Below are positions 48,451-57,540 of a stretch of DNA of 64,000 nucleotides, one piece after another. The notes beneath the pieces were generated by a model that did no database searches, was not told the origin of the DNA, and saw only the letters and a program-made list of their open reading frames with translations. Source of the stretch: Halopseudomonas salina (GTDB lineage Bacteria > Pseudomonadota > Gammaproteobacteria > Pseudomonadales > Pseudomonadaceae); contig NZ_VTTI01000003.1 in the NCBI RefSeq assembly GCF_008641105.1, positions 146,981 through 210,980 of the forward strand, given 5' to 3'. The translations under genes and the position numbers were made by a program. How positions within the stretch are numbered: the stretch's first letter is position 1; every line of letters begins with the position of its first letter.

Positions 48451-50601
48451 ATGATGGCAGTTACTAAGGCAGCCCTCAGCAAGCTTCTCGCCATCATAGT
48501 ACTGACTTTTGTCACTATTTGGCTGTCGCGCTTCACCTCAATTTCCGGCGAACTCTCACTCATCTGGCCAGTTACCGGGATGTCGGTTGCGGTCGCTCTG
48601 GTGTGGGGTCGACTGGCGACTGTAGCTGTTGGTATGGGCATGCTTCTCTGGGCCGCTTATCAGTGGCTCTCGCCATCTATTTGGCCACTTTTATTCGCGG
48701 AAGCCACCGTACCCGGATTACTGGCCTATTATTGGCCGAGCCGCTGGACCCTGAGCAGCAACCGCGCCTTGAGTAGCCTGGCTAATTTTTTTCTCCGGGG
48801 CCTACTACCTGGCGCCGCCAGTGCGGCCTTGTTCGGTACCTTGGCGATTGCTGCCAGCGATAGATATCCTGATTTTCACGTACTCGATATCGCCGCTTTT
48901 TATTGGGTTACAAGTGCAATTGGGGTCCTACTAATTGCCCCTTTGTTGATGAGTGTTTGCCTACAGGGTCTGCACCTAGAACAGAATGATCGGCGTTTTC
49001 TTTTGCAATGGTTCGGCTGCCTTTTACCCGTGCTTTTGCTTTCTGTCTTTGCAAGCCCGGAATACCGCTGGATTGCCCACTACCTATTTGTGCCCATGAT
49101 GGTCTGGGCCAGCCTGATCGCCTCACCGTTACTGCTAAATCTGTTGTTGCTTGGCGTGAGTGTGCTGGTGATCTCGGTTGTGCGAACGGATTTCAATTCT
49201 GAAGTTGCCGACAATGCAGCCATGGCTGAGGTCATTGTGCAGTTGGTGATTATGGTGCTGACCATGCAGGTGCTTTCGGCAGTCTCACGCGAACGTCAGA
49301 ATATGCTGCGGGTGTTAAAGCGCCAGGCCCATTATGATCAGCTCAGTGGTCTGTATAACGAAATGGGGTTGGCAAGCTGGCTGGACCAGCAAAGCAGCGG
49401 CAATGGCACGCTGGTTATTTTGCGTCTCGAGCAGATCAACAATCTGGCTGATCTGCTGGGTCTTGAAGCCTGCGAACGCATCGAGAAAACAGTAGCTGAA
49501 GAGTTTTCGAACTGGGTACCTGGTCACTACGCGCGACTTTGGCGTGGTCTTTACGCTGCAGCCCTGGACATGCCCATCCAGCAGGCTGAAAGCACTCTGC
49601 TCCGTTTTTACCAGCAGCTTGATGGCCGTGCGGTCTGCAATGACCACTCAAACCTGCTGATGCGCCCGAGCATGGTTCTGACGTCACGTAGCAGTGCAGG
49701 CAGCGTCGAGCTACGGCTCGCGGTGGATGGTCTGGCCACGGCAGCGAATATGACCGGTAATCGCTTCAGTCGATTAAGTCATCCTGAATATGCCGCAGGC
49801 AACCGACTTGAAAATAAGGCATTGCAGGAAGCCATCAAGGTCGGGCTGCGTGACCGCGAATTCGTCCTCTATGCGCAACCTATAGTGCCGTTGCAAGGCC
49901 ACTCCCGGGAGCCGCATTGCGAAATACTCTTACGCTGGCAAAACAGTGCCGGTGAGCTGGTATCTCCTGGTGATTTTCTTCCAGCTGCCGAGCAGGCAGG
50001 CTTGATGGGCTCGATTGACTGCTACGTAATCGATAATCTGCTACTTATGTTGCAGCGAGAACCGATGCTAGCGCTCCAATTCAGCAAATTTGGCATCAAC
50101 CTTTCCGGTTCATCACTGACCGACCCGCAGCTCCCCGAATGGATCTGTCAGCGCGTAAAGGCCGCGCAGATTGACCCCACGCTACTGTGTTTTGAAATTA
50201 CTGAATCCCAAGTCATTAGCAACCGCCCCCAGGCGGTGCGCTTACTCGATACCTTGCGTGAACTGGGTGCCAGCGTAGCTCTGGACGATTTTGGTACCGG
50301 GTTGGCTACCTTTGAATACCTGAAGCAGTTCCGTTTCGACTATCTAAAAATTGATGGCAGCTTCATCAAAGAACTGTCCTCATCAGCAGTCGACCAGTCC
50401 ATTGTCCGTTCCATGGTCAGTGTCGCCGCGACCCTTGAATTGAAAACCATTGCCGAATTCGTTGAGGACCAGGCCACCCAGGATTTGCTGGAAAACTTCA
50501 AAGTCGACTTTGCTCAGGGCTATCATCTGGGCCGCCCGGCGCCCCTTAGTTCCTGGCTCAAGCTGACGCAAGTCAATCATAAACAATCAGCTGGTGGTTA
50601 A
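48451..50601 (+). CDS. MASE-like membrane sensor - degenerate GGDEF - EAL protein
   Basis: 716 residues. The first 290 residues contain eight or more hydrophobic helices (MASE1-like sensor). A degenerate GGDEF domain follows (YDQLSGLYNEMGLASWL, no GGDEF motif), then an EAL domain (about 455-705) with CEILLRW, NLSGSSL, FEITESQV, DDFGTGLA and KIDGSFI. The first motif reads EIL in place of EAL, but the metal ligands appear kept, so c-di-GMP hydrolysis is likely. Start ATG 48451 is followed by ATG 48454. The gene lies between the full glutathione-transferase gene and a fragment copy of it. Confidence 0.85.
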   Translation: MMAVTKAALSKLLAIIVLTFVTIWLSRFTSISGELSLIWPVTGMSVAVALVWGRLATVAVGMGMLLWAAYQWLSPSIWPLLFAEATVPGLLAYYWPSRWTLSSNRALSSLANFFLRGLLPGAASAALFGTLAIAASDRYPDFHVLDIAAFYWVTSAIGVLLIAPLLMSVCLQGLHLEQNDRRFLLQWFGCLLPVLLLSVFASPEYRWIAHYLFVPMMVWASLIASPLLLNLLLLGVSVLVISVVRTDFNSEVADNAAMAEVIVQLVIMVLTMQVLSAVSRERQNMLRVLKRQAHYDQLSGLYNEMGLASWLDQQSSGNGTLVILRLEQINNLADLLGLEACERIEKTVAEEFSNWVPGHYARLWRGLYAAALDMPIQQAESTLLRFYQQLDGRAVCNDHSNLLMRPSMVLTSRSSAGSVELRLAVDGLATAANMTGNRFSRLSHPEYAAGNRLENKALQEAIKVGLRDREFVLYAQPIVPLQGHSREPHCEILLRWQNSAGELVSPGDFLPAAEQAGLMGSIDCYVIDNLLLMLQREPMLALQFSKFGINLSGSSLTDPQLPEWICQRVKAAQIDPTLLCFEITESQVISNRPQAVRLLDTLRELGASVALDDFGTGLATFEYLKQFRFDYLKIDGSFIKELSSSAVDQSIVRSMVSVAATLELKTIAEFVEDQATQDLLENFKVDFAQGYHLGRPAPLSSWLKLTQVNHKQSAGG

Positions 50602-50676
50602 TCCGAGCCTTGGCGATCGCTGGGAAAACCGGGTTTCTCAAAACTCCAGCTAGGCTAGATGAACATTTCATACTGA

Positions 50677-50834
50677 GCAGATCACCCGTGATCGAGGATG
50701 GCGACCTGGTGATATGTGAATCCGGCGCCATCATCGACTACCTGGTCAGCCGCTACGGCGCAGTAACATTTGCCCCACCTGCCAACACCCCCGCACACGC
50801 CCGCTACGTGCAACGGCTGCACTTCGCCGAAGGC
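50677..50834 (+). pseudogene. Fragment of a glutathione S-transferase gene
   Basis: This 158-bp segment aligns without gaps to 47788-47945 inside the complete glutathione-transferase gene, with about a dozen mismatches (near 92% identity by eye). It encodes PVIEDGDLVICESGAI and on to FAEG, then diverges abruptly into the sequence before the GNAT gene. It has neither start nor C-terminus, so it is a dead copy. The two copies are direct repeats flanking the EAL gene. Confidence 0.85.
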
Positions 50835-50850
50835 TACGTACCCTCCCGGA

Positions 50851-51309
50851 CTAGAGCTTTCGGTGCATCAACCAGTGCTCCTTACCCCAAGCGTGGAAAA
50901 GCTCCACATATTCCCATCCGCGCTTGGCGTAGTAGTCACCACGATCATGGGTATGCAAGTACAGTCGTTCATAGCCCTTGGCACTAGCTTGGGAGTAGAC
51001 GCCCTCAATCAGCTGTTCCGCCAATCCGCGCTGCCGTGCCTGCGGGGTAACAAAAACGCACGCAAGCCAGGGCCCCAAGTCCGGACGCTCGGGCAAATCG
51101 TTTTTAGCTAGTGCAGCCCCGCCTAAAAGCTCGCCGTCCTCCAGGGCAACAAGGGTGTGCCACTCCCCGTTGCTCTGGCCGTCCCTGAACTCCCGCTGCC
51201 AATCAACCAGTGGCTGCTCACTGTATTCGTATGCAAACTGTTGATGTACCCACAGCGCAAAGGTATCGCTGTAATCCAAGTGATCACGTAATGAAACTAA
51301 CCGGGGCAT
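50851..51309 (-). CDS. GNAT-family N-acetyltransferase
   Basis: 152 residues. The acetyl-CoA-binding motif is VFVTPQARQRGLAEQLIEGV (about 84-103, RxxGxA pattern), followed by YLHTHDRGDYYAKRGWEYVE, typical of the GNAT C-terminal half. The substrate is unknown. Its stop is only 17 bp from the glutathione-transferase fragment. Confidence 0.88.
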   Translation of the reverse strand: MPRLVSLRDHLDYSDTFALWVHQQFAYEYSEQPLVDWQREFRDGQSNGEWHTLVALEDGELLGGAALAKNDLPERPDLGPWLACVFVTPQARQRGLAEQLIEGVYSQASAKGYERLYLHTHDRGDYYAKRGWEYVELFHAWGKEHWLMHRKL

Positions 51310-51647
51310 GTGAATGGCCTTACCGCTTTATTAGGGGCGAGATCTTAGCAAATGACGGAGTTGTTCGCTGCGGTTCGCGGGTAGGCAGGTCCACGCCAGA
51401 TTGACGTATTCACTGAGGAAGCTTAGGCAAAAAACAAGACCTGACTCTCGGCTGCTGCCTGCCTATTTCTAGTGCTGACTGCCAGCCAATACGTGAGATA
51501 TGATCATATGGCCCCCATTTTCGTGATGAGCTCGTGAGTGTATTGGGATAACATATCGGTTCGAATAAAGCTATTGAACAGAATCGCCAGATAGTCGAAA
51601 CATGAACTTTTTTAAGCTTCGCGCCCTAACAACAGGAGTTCAGCTTG
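51310..51647. other. Intergenic region at the left edge of the AT-rich island
   Basis: No gene is seen. The region holds the promoters of the leftward GNAT gene and the rightward BRO gene. A perfect 12-bp palindrome, ATATGATCATAT, lies at 51498-51509. Base composition shifts toward AT from here to about 55550. Confidence 0.5.
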
Positions 51648-52400
51648 ATGACTGACACAAATTTAATACTTTCTTATCCTGAAAATGGAAAAAACATAAG
51701 GACCATTTATCGTAACGAAGAAGTATTCTTTTGCTTAGCTGACGTTGTACAGATACTAGCCGAGCAGAATACAAAACTAGCCGCCGACGAAAAGAAACAA
51801 GGCTTAGGCGGTTTAACCAAAGCACTCCTCGACTCGCTTGATCCGGACGAAAAGTATTTTGTACCAGAAATAAATTTAACTCACTTACAGGATTCTCAAT
51901 TCGTCTCTCAACCGGGCCTATTCCGCATAATCTTGCGAGACAACAGCCCTGCTTGCAAAAAATTTCAAAGATGGGTTTTTCATGACGTTTTGCCTTCATT
52001 ACAAAAATTCGGAACTTACCCGCCACCAAGCGTGCCACAGGGCTCCGACGTAAAAAAAGCAGTAATGCTACTTCTTGATGAAATTGAGGAGAGAGAACGA
52101 TTAGAACGGGAGACAAGGGAGCGCTTTCTCGTGACTGAGAGAAAGCTTAATGAACTCAGTGAACGCTTATCTGAAACTGAATCACAGCCTGCTTACGGCA
52201 TTGTCTACATGTCAGTTGAGCGGCACAGTGAAGGAGAGTTACGAGATGCCAGGGAACTACAGCACATACAGGGATGGTGTATTAAAATTTGCGCTGAAGA
52301 GGGCTACTCAAGCAGAAAGGTTATTGTTGATGGAAAAGAATGCATCACCTTTCCAGAAATAGTTCTCACAAAAGCAAAAAAACAAATTGCGGAAATATAA
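51648..52400 (+). CDS. BRO-N domain protein
   Basis: 250 residues from ATG 51648, with AGGAG 9 bases upstream. The N-terminal 115 residues are a BRO-N (phage antirepressor-like) domain: EEVFFCLADVVQIL, YFVPEINLTHLQDSQFVSQPGL and NSPACKKFQRWVFHDVLPSL. A helical, Glu/Arg-rich linker and an unrecognised C-terminal domain follow. BRO-N proteins are common in phages and mobile islands and bind DNA. The gene is AT-rich compared with its chromosomal neighbours and converges on the cluster that follows. Confidence 0.82.
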   Translation: MTDTNLILSYPENGKNIRTIYRNEEVFFCLADVVQILAEQNTKLAADEKKQGLGGLTKALLDSLDPDEKYFVPEINLTHLQDSQFVSQPGLFRIILRDNSPACKKFQRWVFHDVLPSLQKFGTYPPPSVPQGSDVKKAVMLLLDEIEERERLERETRERFLVTERKLNELSERLSETESQPAYGIVYMSVERHSEGELRDARELQHIQGWCIKICAEEGYSSRKVIVDGKECITFPEIVLTKAKKQIAEI

Positions 52401-52405
52401 AATCG

Positions 52406-52463
52406 GGGCTCGAAAAACAACGGCAGGCCTACCTACCCAACCGTTAACTTAAAAATCGAGCCC
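52406..52463. terminator. Inverted repeat between converging genes
   Basis: GGGCTCGA (52406-52413) pairs with TCGAGCCC (52456-52463), and an inner AACGG/CCGTT pair lies between them. The repeat spans the end of the nucleotidyltransferase gene and probably stops transcription from both sides. Confidence 0.45.
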
Positions 52464-53219
52464 ATAATTTCTACCTTTTAAAAAAATCTCGGTCCCAAAA
52501 AAATCTGGCTTCACGAGCAGCAACTCTTTCCTTAATAGAGTGATTTCCGATCTCGAAAAATATATTTTCCCCTTGCCCTCAACCTGTGCATCATAAATCT
52601 CCTCTGGTGTCCTTTTTTCCAACTGATCTTGCAAAAATGCCAAAGCCTTTGGCATTAGGTAACGCGCCCTGCCGTCGTGAATTGATCGGAGCAACCGCAT
52701 CAGCACACCGAGCTCACTTGGATTCTCAGCTAAAACTAATTCTAATTTTCCGTGCTTTAGCTCCTCAAAATAGCCACTATTTACAAAAATCTTCCTACTC
52801 TTGAAAGAATATAAGATAGCATCCCAATTAGAAACTGTAGTTTTCAACAGACTTCTTCGATCAATAAAATTTACTAATCCTTTCTTGAAGGCCCAAGTTT
52901 CACGAACAGACCATACGTCGACATCCCAGCCACCTATCTGAAAACGGTAGCCACCAAATTTATTTCTATACGCATTAGGAATCGACTGAAAAAACACATC
53001 CAAACTTTCTTGCTCGCACTCGACCACAAGATCTACGTCAGAGTAAAATTCTTTAATACCAAACATCGCCACATCACGCAACAAACCGCCAAATACAAGC
53101 ACCTCCCCCACATGGGACAACTCGCCAATAAAGCAGCTAACCTCGGTGAATCTTGATGATTCAAATATCCGCTGGACGCGCTTCCGCAGTATCTCCGAAC
53201 TCGTAGCAATGTCGATCAT
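52449..53219 (-). CDS. Nucleotidyltransferase-fold protein
   Basis: 256 residues from ATG 53219; a TTG at 53249 gives a longer but unlikely frame. The N-terminal part has a DNA-polymerase-beta-type nucleotidyltransferase core: VLVFGGLLRDVAMFG followed by YSDVDLVVECEQ, where the two acidic residues of SDVD would bind metal. The arrangement resembles CCA-adding/poly(A) polymerase heads, but the protein is much shorter and lacks their tRNA-binding tail. It overlaps the upstream dGTPase gene by 59 bp, so the two are coupled. The substrate is unknown. Confidence 0.7.
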   Translation of the reverse strand: MIDIATSSEILRKRVQRIFESSRFTEVSCFIGELSHVGEVLVFGGLLRDVAMFGIKEFYSDVDLVVECEQESLDVFFQSIPNAYRNKFGGYRFQIGGWDVDVWSVRETWAFKKGLVNFIDRRSLLKTTVSNWDAILYSFKSRKIFVNSGYFEELKHGKLELVLAENPSELGVLMRLLRSIHDGRARYLMPKALAFLQDQLEKRTPEEIYDAQVEGKGKIYFSRSEITLLRKELLLVKPDFFGTEIFLKGRNYGLDF

Positions 53220-54606
53220 ATAAAGGTTTAAGCTCCGAATGTAATGCAATTAGGTAGCTATCAGTCATACCCGAAATAGCATCAGCTAAGAGCTGCGCCT
53301 CCTTGTAATTAACAGAAAATGAATTATTACAATCCAAAAAAACACGTCGATAGCTTTCAGAAATTCTAGAAAAAGCGTAACGCCCAAATGGCGTAATGGA
53401 ATAACCCGTAGAATTTAGATTACCTCTTATACCAACCCAAAGCATATCCATAGCTTCATGTATATAATTATGCCCTTTTAGCTCAAGCTCTAAAACGCTT
53501 TTATGTCTAAAACCATACTCTAGATCAAATTTTTTAAGCGTTTGACATAATATTTTAGAATCAGATACACCAATAAGCCCTTTGTAAAGGGGCTCACCAA
53601 CCATTAAATCGCCAATATTTTCCGAAAAGCCTTTAACGACGGAACCAACCATACTCGTTATTGCATTTACCCTAAACATCTGCATTGAGCAATCATTGAG
53701 CTCCTGCGGACTTAATGAACTATCTTCGAACTCTTTATTCTTCCGCCTCGAGTGTTCGATAACGCTTGCGACTGTTTCATCAGCAGCGCAATTTTTTTCC
53801 AAATACCGAATCAGGTCGTAGTATGATGCTAGCCCTTTTTTAACCGTATCTTCAGCATCAAGCACAGAGTATGCGATATCGTCACAAGCCTCCATTATAT
53901 ATGTCAGAGGATGCCTGACCCCCTCCGACAGGCCCGTAGCCTCCCATACTTCCTGCACCATATCTTTTTCTGAATCGAAATAGCCTTGTTTTTTCCACCT
54001 TTCGGAGTCGGTCGAGGTGGCTGGCACTGGATATTTTATTAAAGCACCCAACGTAGCATAAGTTAGATTCAAACCGTATTCATCATTTAAAATTTGTAAC
54101 TTAGTAACCAAACGCACGGTTTGAGCATTGCCATCAAACTTTAGAAAGTCCAAAGCCTCCGATTCGGTATCGAAAATTTTTCCCTTATTTTTTGAAAACC
54201 AGCTCTGAATTGAATATTCGCCTTGGTGCCCAAAAGGCGGATTGCCCAGATCGTGTACTAACCCTATTGCAGCCAAAATAGCGGGCACGCTTCTTTGAAC
54301 AAACTCTGGGCAACCAGCGTCTCTGAAGTGGTCGTATTGCTCGTACGCCAACCGTAGCCCAATGCTCCGAGCCAAAGTCGAAACTTCGTGAGAATGAGTA
54401 AGCCGTGTCCTCACGCTGTCATTTTTATCTAAGGGGAAAACCTGAGTTTTGTCAGCCAAACGCCTAATAGGGGCAGAGAACAGGATCCGATCATAATCCC
54501 TTTCTATTTCATACCTACCATTGGGAGAAGCCAGCCCCCTGCTAGGCACTTCTTTGAGTCGATCTTTTCGACGGCCTTGATTTAACAATTCTTTCCAATT
54601 AAGCAT
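53161..54606 (-). CDS. dgt: dGTPase (deoxyguanosinetriphosphate triphosphohydrolase)
   Basis: 481 residues from ATG 54606, with AAGGA 7 bases upstream. The HD-domain metal ligands are clear: THSHEVSTLARSIG (His), GLVHDLGNPPFGHQGE (His-Asp) and EACDDIAYSVLDAED (Asp). The length and the N-terminal RDYDRILFSAPIRRLADKTQVFPL match dGTPases, which split dNTPs, chiefly dGTP, into deoxynucleoside and triphosphate. Members of this family have been shown to block phages by depleting dNTPs. It is AT-rich, lies in an accessory island and overlaps a nucleotidyltransferase gene, so defence is more likely than housekeeping. Confidence 0.88.
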   Translation of the reverse strand: MLNWKELLNQGRRKDRLKEVPSRGLASPNGRYEIERDYDRILFSAPIRRLADKTQVFPLDKNDSVRTRLTHSHEVSTLARSIGLRLAYEQYDHFRDAGCPEFVQRSVPAILAAIGLVHDLGNPPFGHQGEYSIQSWFSKNKGKIFDTESEALDFLKFDGNAQTVRLVTKLQILNDEYGLNLTYATLGALIKYPVPATSTDSERWKKQGYFDSEKDMVQEVWEATGLSEGVRHPLTYIMEACDDIAYSVLDAEDTVKKGLASYYDLIRYLEKNCAADETVASVIEHSRRKNKEFEDSSLSPQELNDCSMQMFRVNAITSMVGSVVKGFSENIGDLMVGEPLYKGLIGVSDSKILCQTLKKFDLEYGFRHKSVLELELKGHNYIHEAMDMLWVGIRGNLNSTGYSITPFGRYAFSRISESYRRVFLDCNNSFSVNYKEAQLLADAISGMTDSYLIALHSELKPLYDRHCYEFGDTAEARPADI

Positions 54607-54732
54607 AAACACATCCTTTTTAATATTAGCGCTTGTATGGGGTGCTTTGACTGCCTCAACACAAACAAGCTTTGTCCATTTCCTTATAATCCAATAAATA
54701 GCTTTATTAAAACTCTCTCATCCCACTCTTAT

Positions 54733-55431
54733 CTAGAAAGTGCGTGGGATAAATTTCTGAATCAACTCAGGTATGCCAACTTGCCTTGCATAATTCTCGG
54801 AACAAAAACATGACCCACATTCTCTCGCTATAACTGGACACCTTCCAAGACCCCAAGTTTGCACCGCTTCATTCATAGCCTTTAATGACTCCTGCCCCAA
54901 GTTGAGATTGGTGTCAATCGATAAACGGGGATCATCTACAGTTATATCTCTTAGGTAATCAAATGACAGGGGGCGCCCAAGCCGCCTAATTGTTACCATT
55001 TTTCGATGTCTTTCATACTTGTCCCACTCTAGCGCCAACTCTTCTACATCTCCAAAATATTTTTGAGCATTATCTGTAAGACCACTCCAATAAACTGGGT
55101 TATTTTTAGTAACCCATACTTGCAGCTCTTCATCTAACAACAGATCCAGATCAAGTCTAAATAAAGAAGGACCGTAGTGATTCTGCCGCCCGAAGTGCCG
55201 ATGCAGGTCTACTGTATCTAAAAAAATATCATCGAATACATCATGCTTTTTGTCTATATTGTCGGATTCTTGTGGTGTCTGATATAGGCCTTTTTCTTCA
55301 ACGTATTTCCTCGAAAGCAAGCCATTTTTTGCAATATAGGTCAGGGAGGTTGCTATCGTGTTCGCGTGGAATAGGCTTGAAATACCCTTTTCCAGAAATA
55401 GTTCATACAACCCAAGGTTATTTAGCCGCAT
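54733..55431 (-). CDS. Unrecognised protein, possibly ADP-ribosyltransferase-like
   Basis: 232 residues. I cannot place it firmly. The opening ISSLFHANTIATSLTYIAKNGLLSR resembles the start of DarT-like ADP-ribosyltransferases (hydrophobic strand, FHxxT, then a helix and GLLS), and a later FRLDLDLLL plus VWVTKNNPVYW is compatible with that fold. A C-terminal cluster (GRCPVIARECGSCFCSENY) has four cysteines that could bind zinc. It is first in a leftward cluster with the dGTPase and nucleotidyltransferase, 126 bp upstream of the dGTPase gene. The function remains open. Confidence 0.5.
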   Translation of the reverse strand: MRLNNLGLYELFLEKGISSLFHANTIATSLTYIAKNGLLSRKYVEEKGLYQTPQESDNIDKKHDVFDDIFLDTVDLHRHFGRQNHYGPSLFRLDLDLLLDEELQVWVTKNNPVYWSGLTDNAQKYFGDVEELALEWDKYERHRKMVTIRRLGRPLSFDYLRDITVDDPRLSIDTNLNLGQESLKAMNEAVQTWGLGRCPVIARECGSCFCSENYARQVGIPELIQKFIPRTF

Positions 55432-55619
55432 AAAATTCTACTCATCAATTGCAATGTCATCTAATTTCTGTACAGCATAGCCATGGCTTTTATATTCTAC
55501 ATAATTTGCGCGTAATTGGGGTCAGATGAGAATTAGATATTCCGCTCATTTGCTGACCTAGCTGATTTTCCGTCTCGAACTGAAGTCCGGCCCGTTAAAG
55601 CCGACATCGAAGCTGGATC

Positions 55620-56249
55620 TCACTCCGCCGGGTTATAAGCAGCAGCCCTCCGGCACGCCGGTGAGTTCCAGTTACTACTGCTATGGCAGAGTCGGTTATG
55701 AGCCTTTTTCATCAGTGCCTTGAACCGCCTGCATTCGATACTACCTGCCGGGGCGTAACACGTAGGCGTTTCATGCTTGATCCCACCAAAATGGATTTTT
55801 CCCTCCTCCTTAGGAGCCTCGTAGGCGATGGGTTTGCGCATAGCGATGGTATTCACCTGCGTGGCAGGAACGTAGTTCGAATCGTTGAAAACCGTCTGCT
55901 TTGAATTCAGCGGGGCCTCAGCATTTTCATCGAGGCTGTCGCGGTACATCTGCTCTACCTGCCGATCGTAGTCGTCGTCGGTCCACTCAATAGATGCTTG
56001 TGGCGCGCTGGTTTGCTGAGTGGTGACCGGAGGTGGATTCACCAACCGGGTTTGACGGGTGTCGATCGATGCAGCGGAGGGCGCGGTTGCAGTCTGCACG
56101 GTTGTTTGCGGCGGAGTGGGCTTGAACGCTGCATACGCAACACCAGCGGCCAGCACGGCCATAACCATGAACCACAAAGCGATACGTGGGGGCTTATCTC
56201 CCCTGCGCCGTCTAATGCGATCCGGTGCGTCATCCCAATCAGAGTACAT
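55620..56249 (-). CDS. Hypothetical single-pass membrane protein
   Basis: 209 residues. A charged cytoplasmic N-terminus (RIRRRRGDKPPR) precedes one transmembrane helix at about residues 23-41, a Pro/Thr/Gln-rich linker, and a C-terminal part with Cys residues in ETPTCYAPAGSIECRRF and NRLCHSSSNWNSPACRR, likely disulfides in the periplasm. AAGGAGG lies 7 bases upstream. It follows the Mrr-type nuclease gene by 30 bp in the same direction. Confidence 0.7.
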   Translation of the reverse strand: MYSDWDDAPDRIRRRRGDKPPRIALWFMVMAVLAAGVAYAAFKPTPPQTTVQTATAPSAASIDTRQTRLVNPPPVTTQQTSAPQASIEWTDDDYDRQVEQMYRDSLDENAEAPLNSKQTVFNDSNYVPATQVNTIAMRKPIAYEAPKEEGKIHFGGIKHETPTCYAPAGSIECRRFKALMKKAHNRLCHSSSNWNSPACRRAAAYNPAE

Positions 56250-56279
56250 AGCTGCCCTCCTTCACTCGCACGTCAGACA

Positions 56280-57149
56280 TCAACCGCTTACCGTACCTGT
56301 ACACCGTGGATACTTTGAACAGCCCCAAAAGGCGTTACCCGCATTTGCTCCCCGCTTGGCCAGTCGCCTAACCATGGCCGCGCTGCACACTGGGCACAAT
56401 GGCTCTGTGTTGGTGACGGGTGTCATGGCAGGCGCTACTGGCGGGGGCTTTATTTCTACGGTTGGTGTTCTGATCGTGTGCTGCTGCGCTATCCAGCTCT
56501 TGAGCGCTACGCCGTCAATCAACTCGATATTCCGGCCGCTAGCGAAGGCTTTGGCTTCTTTGGTGAACTGGCCTGAGGTCACCACATAGCCACCGGCTGC
56601 GCCTTCGGCTGCCATGGCGCCGAAGAATTCGCGCACCACGGGCAAGCCCACCTTAAGCGCGCGCCAGTGCTTGCACTGCACCAGGTACTTTTCGCCATCC
56701 TTGCGCAAGATCAGATCAATACCACCGTCCGCACCTTTGCCGCCGGTTTCGGTAATGCTGTAACCCTTGCGCCGAAAGGCCTCGCCTATCAGCAGCTCGA
56801 ACTGCGGCCAGCTGAGGCCATCAATGGTCTTGCCGGGCTGGGTAGCGGATTTGACGTCGTTAAGGAGTTTCTTGCGCCGCTGGCGGCCGAATACGGAGCC
56901 GATGGCGCCGAACACGCATACCAGGGGAATCAGGTATTGGCCGAACATGGCGAAGGTGTGCCATAGCTGGCTGATCATCACGCCGGACATGTCGCTGATC
57001 TGCACGCCGGCAGGGACAACTACGGGGCTGCTGGCCACGGGATTCAGGATCAGCCAGCTAACGAACCCGATGAGCAGGCTGGCCCACCAGGGCAGACGGG
57101 AAAGAGCGACAACAACATCTTCAAACGATGAACTACGTTTACGCGCCAT
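56280..57149 (-). CDS. Membrane-anchored Mrr-type nuclease with zinc ribbon
   Basis: 289 residues. Two transmembrane helices lie in the first 88 residues (about 19-38 and 66-86). A restriction-endonuclease Mrr_cat domain follows: WPQFELLIGEAFRRKGY, then GADGGIDLILRKDGEKYLVQCKHW, which holds the Asp and QxK catalytic motif. The C-terminus is a topoisomerase-type C4 zinc ribbon (CPVCSAAM to WGCSKYPRC). Mrr-type enzymes cut modified or foreign DNA. AGGAG lies 9 bases upstream. It is followed by the small membrane protein gene. Confidence 0.85.
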   Translation of the reverse strand: MARKRSSSFEDVVVALSRLPWWASLLIGFVSWLILNPVASSPVVVPAGVQISDMSGVMISQLWHTFAMFGQYLIPLVCVFGAIGSVFGRQRRKKLLNDVKSATQPGKTIDGLSWPQFELLIGEAFRRKGYSITETGGKGADGGIDLILRKDGEKYLVQCKHWRALKVGLPVVREFFGAMAAEGAAGGYVVTSGQFTKEAKAFASGRNIELIDGVALKSWIAQQHTIRTPTVEIKPPPVAPAMTPVTNTEPLCPVCSAAMVRRLAKRGANAGNAFWGCSKYPRCTGTVSG

Positions 57150-57540
57150 CCATGGGCTCCTGAGAGTGGCTTAATGCCTTATCTCAAAGGTAAACCTTCC
57201 GGTGTACAAAAACCACCTTGTCTTGGCCTGAAATGAAGCGATACCGGCCGGAGAATCGCCTGCGACCCTGGCCTAAATCAGTTGATCATCACCGTAGATT
57301 GTATCCTGGTATTAAGCCGCGATTGTGTCCCTACCATATCGGCTATAGTTTTTGAGGATAGCTCTGTCAATACCAGGCAAGGTGATTCTGGTGTAGAGAC
57401 TGAGGCCCACCCAGATGAGCCACGCCGAGCTAGTTACGGGTTTGCTGACTGCCGATATCCTGGCTAGGTATGCCGCGCTGTAATTGAACTGTAACGAGCA
57501 CTCGTATGATTCAGGTGAAAGGAATCAAAAGGTTCAAGTA
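57150..57540. other. Intergenic region, no gene seen
   Basis: A 391-bp divergent gap between the Mrr-type nuclease gene and the solute-binding protein gene. Short open frames here have no ribosome sites or recognisable products. No repeat or RNA gene was recognised. Confidence 0.5.

Follow-up and report, generated by a model that had tools for sequence, protein, structure and literature searches.

A Clover locus in Halopseudomonas salina with a probable accessory DarT-fold gene, from a family recurrently placed beside dGTPases

We analysed a stretch of 64,000 nt from Halopseudomonas salina (assembly GCF_008641105.1, contig NZ_VTTI01000003.1, positions 146,981–210,980; hereafter the window), in which three neighbouring genes encode a DarT-fold protein, a deoxyguanosine triphosphate triphosphohydrolase (dGTPase) and a nucleotidyltransferase. 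The dGTPase and the nucleotidyltransferase are CloA and CloB of the Clover system, and the core of the locus is therefore already published. Taken as a whole, the locus is probably Clover to which a co-directional DarT-fold gene has been added upstream as an accessory, and the family of this gene, which is repeatedly placed beside dGTPases, was probably selected to work with the depletion of dGTP. What deserves following is this family and the recurrence of its genes next to dGTPases. The three genes are as follows.

54733..55431, minus strand: DarT-fold protein of 232 amino acids (aa); unmatched in Pfam, NCBIfam and PADLOC; dGTPases are recurrent neighbours of the family.

53161..54606, minus strand: CloA of Clover, the HD-domain dGTPase effector; identified by its match to CloA structures and by its pocket residues.

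52449..53219, minus strand: CloB of Clover, a polymerase-beta (pol-beta)/CCA-type nucleotidyltransferase and predicted maker of the inhibitory signal; identified by its motif, its fold and its overlap with CloA.

Clover (CloA–CloB) was described in a preprint of July 2025 (Yamaguchi et al. 2025, PMC12265719). According to its main text, deoxythymidine triphosphate (dTTP) activates CloA, and p3diT, an inhibitory dinucleotide made by CloB, holds CloA off; a dGTPase can, on this account, need restraint. The original prediction on this DNA had taken the three genes for a candidate undescribed defence system and knew of no named counterpart. The dGTPase–nucleotidyltransferase pair does have a name, Clover, as the main text of the preprint describes it, and the locus appears to be a defence locus, as predicted, with this anti-phage system as its core.

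The window dGTPase matches NCBIfam TIGR01353 with 302.5 bits (cut-off 152.35) and the PADLOC dGTPase model with an expectation value (E) of 1.6e-73, in agreement with its first assignment. Among PDB sequences it matches 9p8t with 590 bits over residues 4–470, and the scores across 9p8s, 9p8t, 9p8u and 9p8v are 582–590. We read these four entries as the structures of Salmonella CloA in PMC12265719, because the CloA residues named in its main text fit 9p8t at 27 of 27 mapped positions; the text gives 9P8W as the Shewanella enzyme and prints the CloA codes as 8P9S to 8P9V, apparently a misprint. Over 464 aligned residues, window CloA shares 59% identity with the Salmonella enzyme. All six metal/catalytic residues (H69, H117, D118, H126, E129 and D242) are identical, as are eight of the ten residues of the p3diT pocket (changes T25S and N75T) and eight of the nine of the dTTP pocket (change N420S). 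The p3diT pocket is also well kept in the CloA proteins of L010 and L067 (L numbers designate loci), both with CloB, at 9/10 residues. In L037 (Oscillospiraceae), CloB is missing beside the CloA-like dGTPase, which keeps 6/6 catalytic and 7/9 dTTP-pocket residues and only 4/10 of the p3diT pocket. These very few cases would fit a p3diT pocket that is retained only where CloB is present. Two other identities of the window dGTPase were rejected, namely the E. coli-type housekeeping dgt (NCBIfam PRK04926, 277.4 bits, cut-off 405) and the stand-alone anti-phage dGTPase (NF041026, 188.6 bits, cut-off 400). The latter, reportedly described by Tal and colleagues in 2022, is likewise an HD dGTPase used against phage and adjoins DarT-fold genes in L016 and L018, whereas the window dGTPase is a CloA with a CloB regulator.

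The nucleotidyltransferase of the window matched no Pfam model. Counting the window protein itself, its profile collected 387 proteins at E ≤ 1e-5, and an alignment of 56 sequences (55 from 120 listed matches plus that of the window, numbered from the TTG start) shows G54, G55, R58, S70, D71, D73 and D111 invariant in 56/56, a GG..R / SDxD / D motif. The AlphaFold2 model has a predicted local distance difference test score of 90.9, and its best Foldseek matches are CCA-adding enzymes (E 9.1e-8), which suggests that it has the head fold of these enzymes. A CCA enzyme was nevertheless rejected as the identity of the protein, which has 266 aa at most compared with 342–517 residues in the matched CCA enzymes. 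This is in accord with the pol-beta-type nucleotidyltransferase, shorter than CCA enzymes and coupled to the dGTPase, that had been predicted. In Clover, CloB is recognized by a pol-beta [D/E]h[D/E]..h[D/E]h motif beside CloA; the window protein has SDxD and D111 together with the head fold, and its gene overlaps that of CloA. The relatives of window CloB include the Xanthomonas protein P0236, which comes from the same genus as one of the CloB proteins tested in the preprint. CloB was not found in viral contigs, and a genome survey found it in 3/390.

Three open reading frames were confirmed on the minus strand, at 52449–53249 (266 aa, TTG start), 53161–54612 (483 aa, GTG start) and 54733–55431 (232 aa). 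The dGTPase probably starts at ATG 54606, two codons inside GTG 54612, since AAGGA lies just upstream, seven bases before this ATG. The nucleotidyltransferase probably starts at ATG 53219 (256 aa) rather than at the upstream TTG 53249, because its closest relatives are mostly 254–261 aa. CloA and CloB overlap by 59 bases with these ATG starts and by 89 bases with the listed starts, and the DarT-fold gene lies 121 bases upstream of the dGTPase on the same strand. The guanine-plus-cytosine content per 1-kb bin is 41–45% in the four bins of 52–56 kb, 48% at 51–52 kb and 52–63% elsewhere. Three co-directional genes in an AT-rich island, two of them overlapping, are thus found as predicted. A terminator-like hairpin lies at 52437–52422, beyond CloB as the last gene; the hairpin scan found five, compared with a mean of 3.9 in shuffles (standard deviation 2.3), hardly more than expected by chance. 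An Rfam scan of 50000–57500 gave no matches.

The window therefore shares with Clover an adjacent dNTPase–nucleotidyltransferase pair, with conserved residues in the catalytic site and in the p3diT and dTTP pockets and with the motif and fold of CloB, and the order CloA-then-CloB, overlapping or nearly so, is the same in L010, L067, L099 and L100. It differs in the three pocket changes and in the DarT-fold gene added upstream. Given the gene identities and the pocket conservation, the published mechanism would be expected in the window as well. In the uninfected cell, CloB would make p3diT, which would bind CloA and keep it off. A phage that inflates dTTP would switch CloA on, and the hydrolysis of dGTP would then starve phage DNA synthesis. 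We infer this regulation and phage restriction in H. salina from the relatives of the locus. The proposal that the nucleotidyltransferase controls the dGTPase is retained as far as restraint is concerned, which is the published role of CloB; the proposed transfer of nucleoside monophosphate is not, since the route given in the main text of the preprint is p3diT. A separate observation concerns L067:3484-5502, where the Clover operon lies on a Phaeobacter conjugative plasmid downstream of genes annotated as phage Gp37/Gp68 family and TcmP, the three-Cys-motif partner. These two may be another accessory pair of Clover.

The third protein of the window has the DarT fold; the comparison of this 232-residue protein with DarT, proposed as a check, showed it to be DarT-like. 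Scans of its single sequence against Pfam, NCBIfam and PADLOC gave no match, and PHROGs gave one weak match (E 0.06). Across 68 family members, Pfam and PADLOC gave stray single-member matches only (DUF1759, 0.0083; PDC-S32, 0.00099; PDC-M02B, 0.0037), and the Pfam DarT model PF14487 matched 0/68 at E ≤ 0.01. The family profile matched no PDB sequences at E ≤ 5. The UniRef names of P0042, P0099 and P0120 say DUF4433, which we take to be the old name of DarT. Residues H22, N24, R41, Q51, Q54, D57, D72, D75, H77, W115 and C210, among others, are invariant in the family.

To place this family, we compiled 73 loci (61 genome loci, four viral, the Salinivibrio plasmid, two from Vibrionaceae, four further viral loci and the window), which include the near-identical L001/L002, L007/L021 and L106/L107 and some on short contigs. 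The genome loci were found with the family alignment; a scan of genome contigs with a single DarT-fold sequence found no relatives. Phage records gave no match to the family, and plasmid records searched with three queries gave one locus, on the same Salinivibrio plasmid. Genome surveys, with already-known carriers included, gave 1/390, 4/329 and 1/48 and added two loci, and the family is thus rare. When the pair from Klebsiella was searched against E. coli genomes, 79/5426 matched; the 20 matches listed cover the dGTPase part only, none of them more than 80% of the query.

A dGTPase, detected by profile, is present in 16 of the 73 loci, and CloB in two, the window and L010. The dGTPases are concentrated next to the DarT-fold gene, in 12/125 immediate-neighbour slots compared with 3/483 at positions 2–5 (Fisher p = 9e-7; first 66 anchored loci, L061 having no callable open reading frame and the duplicate L021 being left out). 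All 12 adjacent dGTPases are co-directional with the DarT-fold gene, with gaps of -3 to 153 bases, and lie upstream in eight cases and downstream in four. L105 has an additional head-to-head pair. L010 (Billgrantia) has all three genes; there the DarT-fold gene and CloB converge, about 10 bases apart. Co-occurrence elsewhere, the check proposed with the original prediction, is thus seen in part: the dGTPase–DarT-fold pair recurs, while among the 73 loci the three-gene set occurs besides the window in L010 alone, and there in another arrangement. In a clustering of the genes within five positions, dGTPase is the commonest neighbour family (15 loci; next 7, 4 and 4). In 26 genomes with such loci, at most three dGTPases per genome score above the curated cut-off, so chance adjacency would be expected to produce far less than one case overall. 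The adjacent loci span Pseudomonadota, Bacteroidota and Bacillota.

The partner dGTPases are not of one kind. The ten of 16 that were scanned fall into different NCBIfam groups, namely E. coli-type Dgt (L013 and L064), anti-phage dGTPase (L016 and L018), PRK01096 (L037, with L050 just below the cut-off) and the general model only (L003, L004, L012 and L058). The pairwise identity among 15 partners is mostly 28–40%, and up to 77%. On a tree of 63 rows, 13 of them labelled dGTPase (the 12 above and L010), the label needs at least nine changes, six of which are forced by well-supported branches, and the mean in shuffles is 12.0. On this tree the pairing appears to have been gained or lost on several occasions. 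Since its dGTPase neighbours belong to different subfamilies, the DarT-fold family would probably have been selected to cooperate with dGTP depletion. This recurrent partnership looks new. In the main text of PMC12265719, a term search met with neither ADP-ribosylation nor CloC nor any third gene, and a literature search for a DarT-like dGTPase partner found none among titles and abstract openings, a set with few subscription papers and with Clover represented by its main text.

The DarT-fold gene could also be an unrelated passenger of Clover, a stand-alone defence gene of mobile islands or prophages that comes close to dGTPases through the clustering of defence genes. We regard this as somewhat unlikely. 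It would account for the 57 of 73 loci with no dGTPase in the fetched flank, for the Salinivibrio plasmid, in which the DarT-fold gene is an orphan between transposase genes, and for L106–L108, in which it stands alone on the opposite strand among genes that we take, by their resemblance, to be phage tail genes and can thus occur without a dGTPase. It would also suit the many different defence genes beside the family (KwaA/KwaB, GajA, LmuA, SLATT and putAbiC among 115 scanned neighbours, for the 25 commonest families), which indicate that the DarT-fold gene is also a general defence-island gene. It explains less well why dGTPase is the top neighbour family and is concentrated at position 1, with short same-strand gaps, both gene orders and several dGTPase subfamilies.

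The loci without a dGTPase and the solitary genes of L106–L108 weigh against a working partnership, and so do further observations. Adjacency in defence islands is no proof of joint function. On the tree, the rows labelled dGTPase show partial clustering, with 2/500 shuffles as low as nine changes; some pairs are therefore not independent of one another, which makes the p-value optimistic. Promoter and terminator scans of the window locus were no better than shuffles, and with a gap of 121 bases before CloA the DarT-fold gene may or may not be co-transcribed with it. The fetched stretches of the Clover loci L067, L099, L100 and L101 (CloA and CloB broken in L101) have no DarT-fold gene. Its absence there led us to reject it as a core Clover gene, and with CloB in only 2/73 family loci it is accessory to Clover. 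Finally, residue equivalences between the family and DarT come from a weak profile alignment (hhalign probability 2–7%) and are therefore leads only. In this alignment, the position of the catalytic glutamate of ADP-ribosyltransferases (E152 in DarT1, E160 in DarT2) is position 145, occupied by Met in 56, His in eight, Cys in three and Ser in one of the 68 members. The position of the catalytic arginine (R52 in DarT1) is position 58, which is variable and mostly Glu, Ala or Asp; Arg is outside the eight commonest residues, which cover 64/68. With both positions unconserved, it may well be that the protein is no ADP-ribosyltransferase.

The predicted third gene, a possible ADP-ribosyltransferase, is thus supported in its fold, and the activity is putative. 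The family differs from the DarT1 and DarT2 ADP-ribosyltransferases of DarTG and DarT-NADAR in that PF14487 is unmatched, the Glu and Arg positions are unconserved in the weak alignment and it has an invariant set of its own. A match to the KptA/Tpt1 tRNA 2'-phosphotransferases, enzymes with an Arg-His-Arg-Arg catalytic set, covers only part of the protein. By the same weak alignment, N111 (68/68) falls at the base-coordinating position of DarT1 N104 and DarT2 H119. N104 of DarT1, the counterpart of the DarT2 histidine, coordinates guanine, and N111 may be a hint at guanine here too. Our favoured guess is that the DarT-fold protein would be a second effector whose active site, derived from that of DarT but lacking the glutamate, targets guanine in nucleic acid or nucleotides. 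The defence would then have two arms, one destroying dGTP and the other disabling the guanine-containing template or nucleotide. In its widest form, this guess would give dGTPases of several subfamilies, CloA included, an undescribed partner in the form of a guanine-directed DarT-fold enzyme without the glutamate, in a two-pronged guanine-denial defence that becomes a three-gene system on Clover in the window. We put this forward tentatively and consider it unlikely to hold in full.

The DarT-fold protein could also be a non-catalytic sensor or regulator of dGTPases, which would bind nicotinamide adenine dinucleotide (NAD+) or a nucleotide in its ADP-ribosyltransferase-like pocket and switch or shield the enzyme in the way that p3diT controls CloA. 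Many of its polar residues are invariant while the catalytic Glu and Arg positions are unconserved, the partner dGTPases lack CloB in 14 of 16 loci, and Clover, in the main text of PMC12265719, shows that a dGTPase may need restraint. However, docking on partners from different subfamilies, mostly 28–40% identical, would be hard; the DarT-fold gene also occurs alone, and in the window restraint is already supplied by CloB. We consider such a regulator quite unlikely.

The toxin fold of DarT and the defence-island setting could point instead to a toxin–antitoxin pair, in which a DNA- or RNA-modifying DarT-fold toxin is reversed or blocked by its neighbour. No match to DarG or NADAR was found in the 73 loci by single-sequence phmmer at E ≤ 0.01, a search of limited sensitivity with two DarG macrodomains and one presumed NADAR antitoxin (the neighbour of a DarT1-like gene) as queries. 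With no such partner detected and the catalytic positions unconserved, an ordinary DarTG or DarT-NADAR system was rejected. The family has no constant partner, and we know of no de-ADP-ribosylating activity in dGTPases. We therefore find a toxin–antitoxin pair highly improbable, and favour Clover with an accessory DarT-fold gene.

Several other genes accompany the family. In L003, L007, L008, L011, L015, L017 and L021, a protein of 71–78 aa is encoded within about 15 bases downstream of the DarT-fold gene, and the copy in L008 has a weak zinc-ribbon match. An unnamed protein of about 300 aa directly follows the DarT-fold gene at L045:10700-11599, L059:3144-4040 and L105:2324-3268; L105 is the locus with the head-to-head dGTPase, and L059 has a dGTPase about 4 kb off. 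In one Vibrionaceae genome, the DarT-fold gene is preceded by a gene (L097:6847-7803) that presumably resembles a 5'-nucleotidase, which would suit the nucleotide-pool theme; none of the other loci has a relative of this gene beside it.

Around the three genes of the window, a 22-base direct repeat (52350–52371 and 55389–55410, 20/22 identical) flanks them almost exactly. None of 60 dinucleotide-matched simulated sequences reached 20 of 22, and the repeat may be a recombination scar. A gene resembling Bro-N phage anti-repressors (51645–52400, plus strand) shares the AT-rich island, runs towards CloB and has no relative in the other 66 DarT-fold family loci searched. Just beyond the AT-rich stretch, the product of 56280–57149 (minus strand) carries an Mrr-type restriction endonuclease domain and, scoring slightly below the cut-off, a topoisomerase-like zinc ribbon at its C terminus.

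In Clover, a recent example, an inhibitory nucleotide keeps immunity in check, and the window contributes a further member whose signal pockets are conserved. Of greater importance is a DarT-fold family, without a convincing Pfam or PADLOC match, that is tied to dGTPases through repeated adjacency. Should this tie prove functional, a partner would have been overlooked for some 'stand-alone' dGTPases, and an ADP-ribosyltransferase-like fold minus its catalytic glutamate would gain a testable role.

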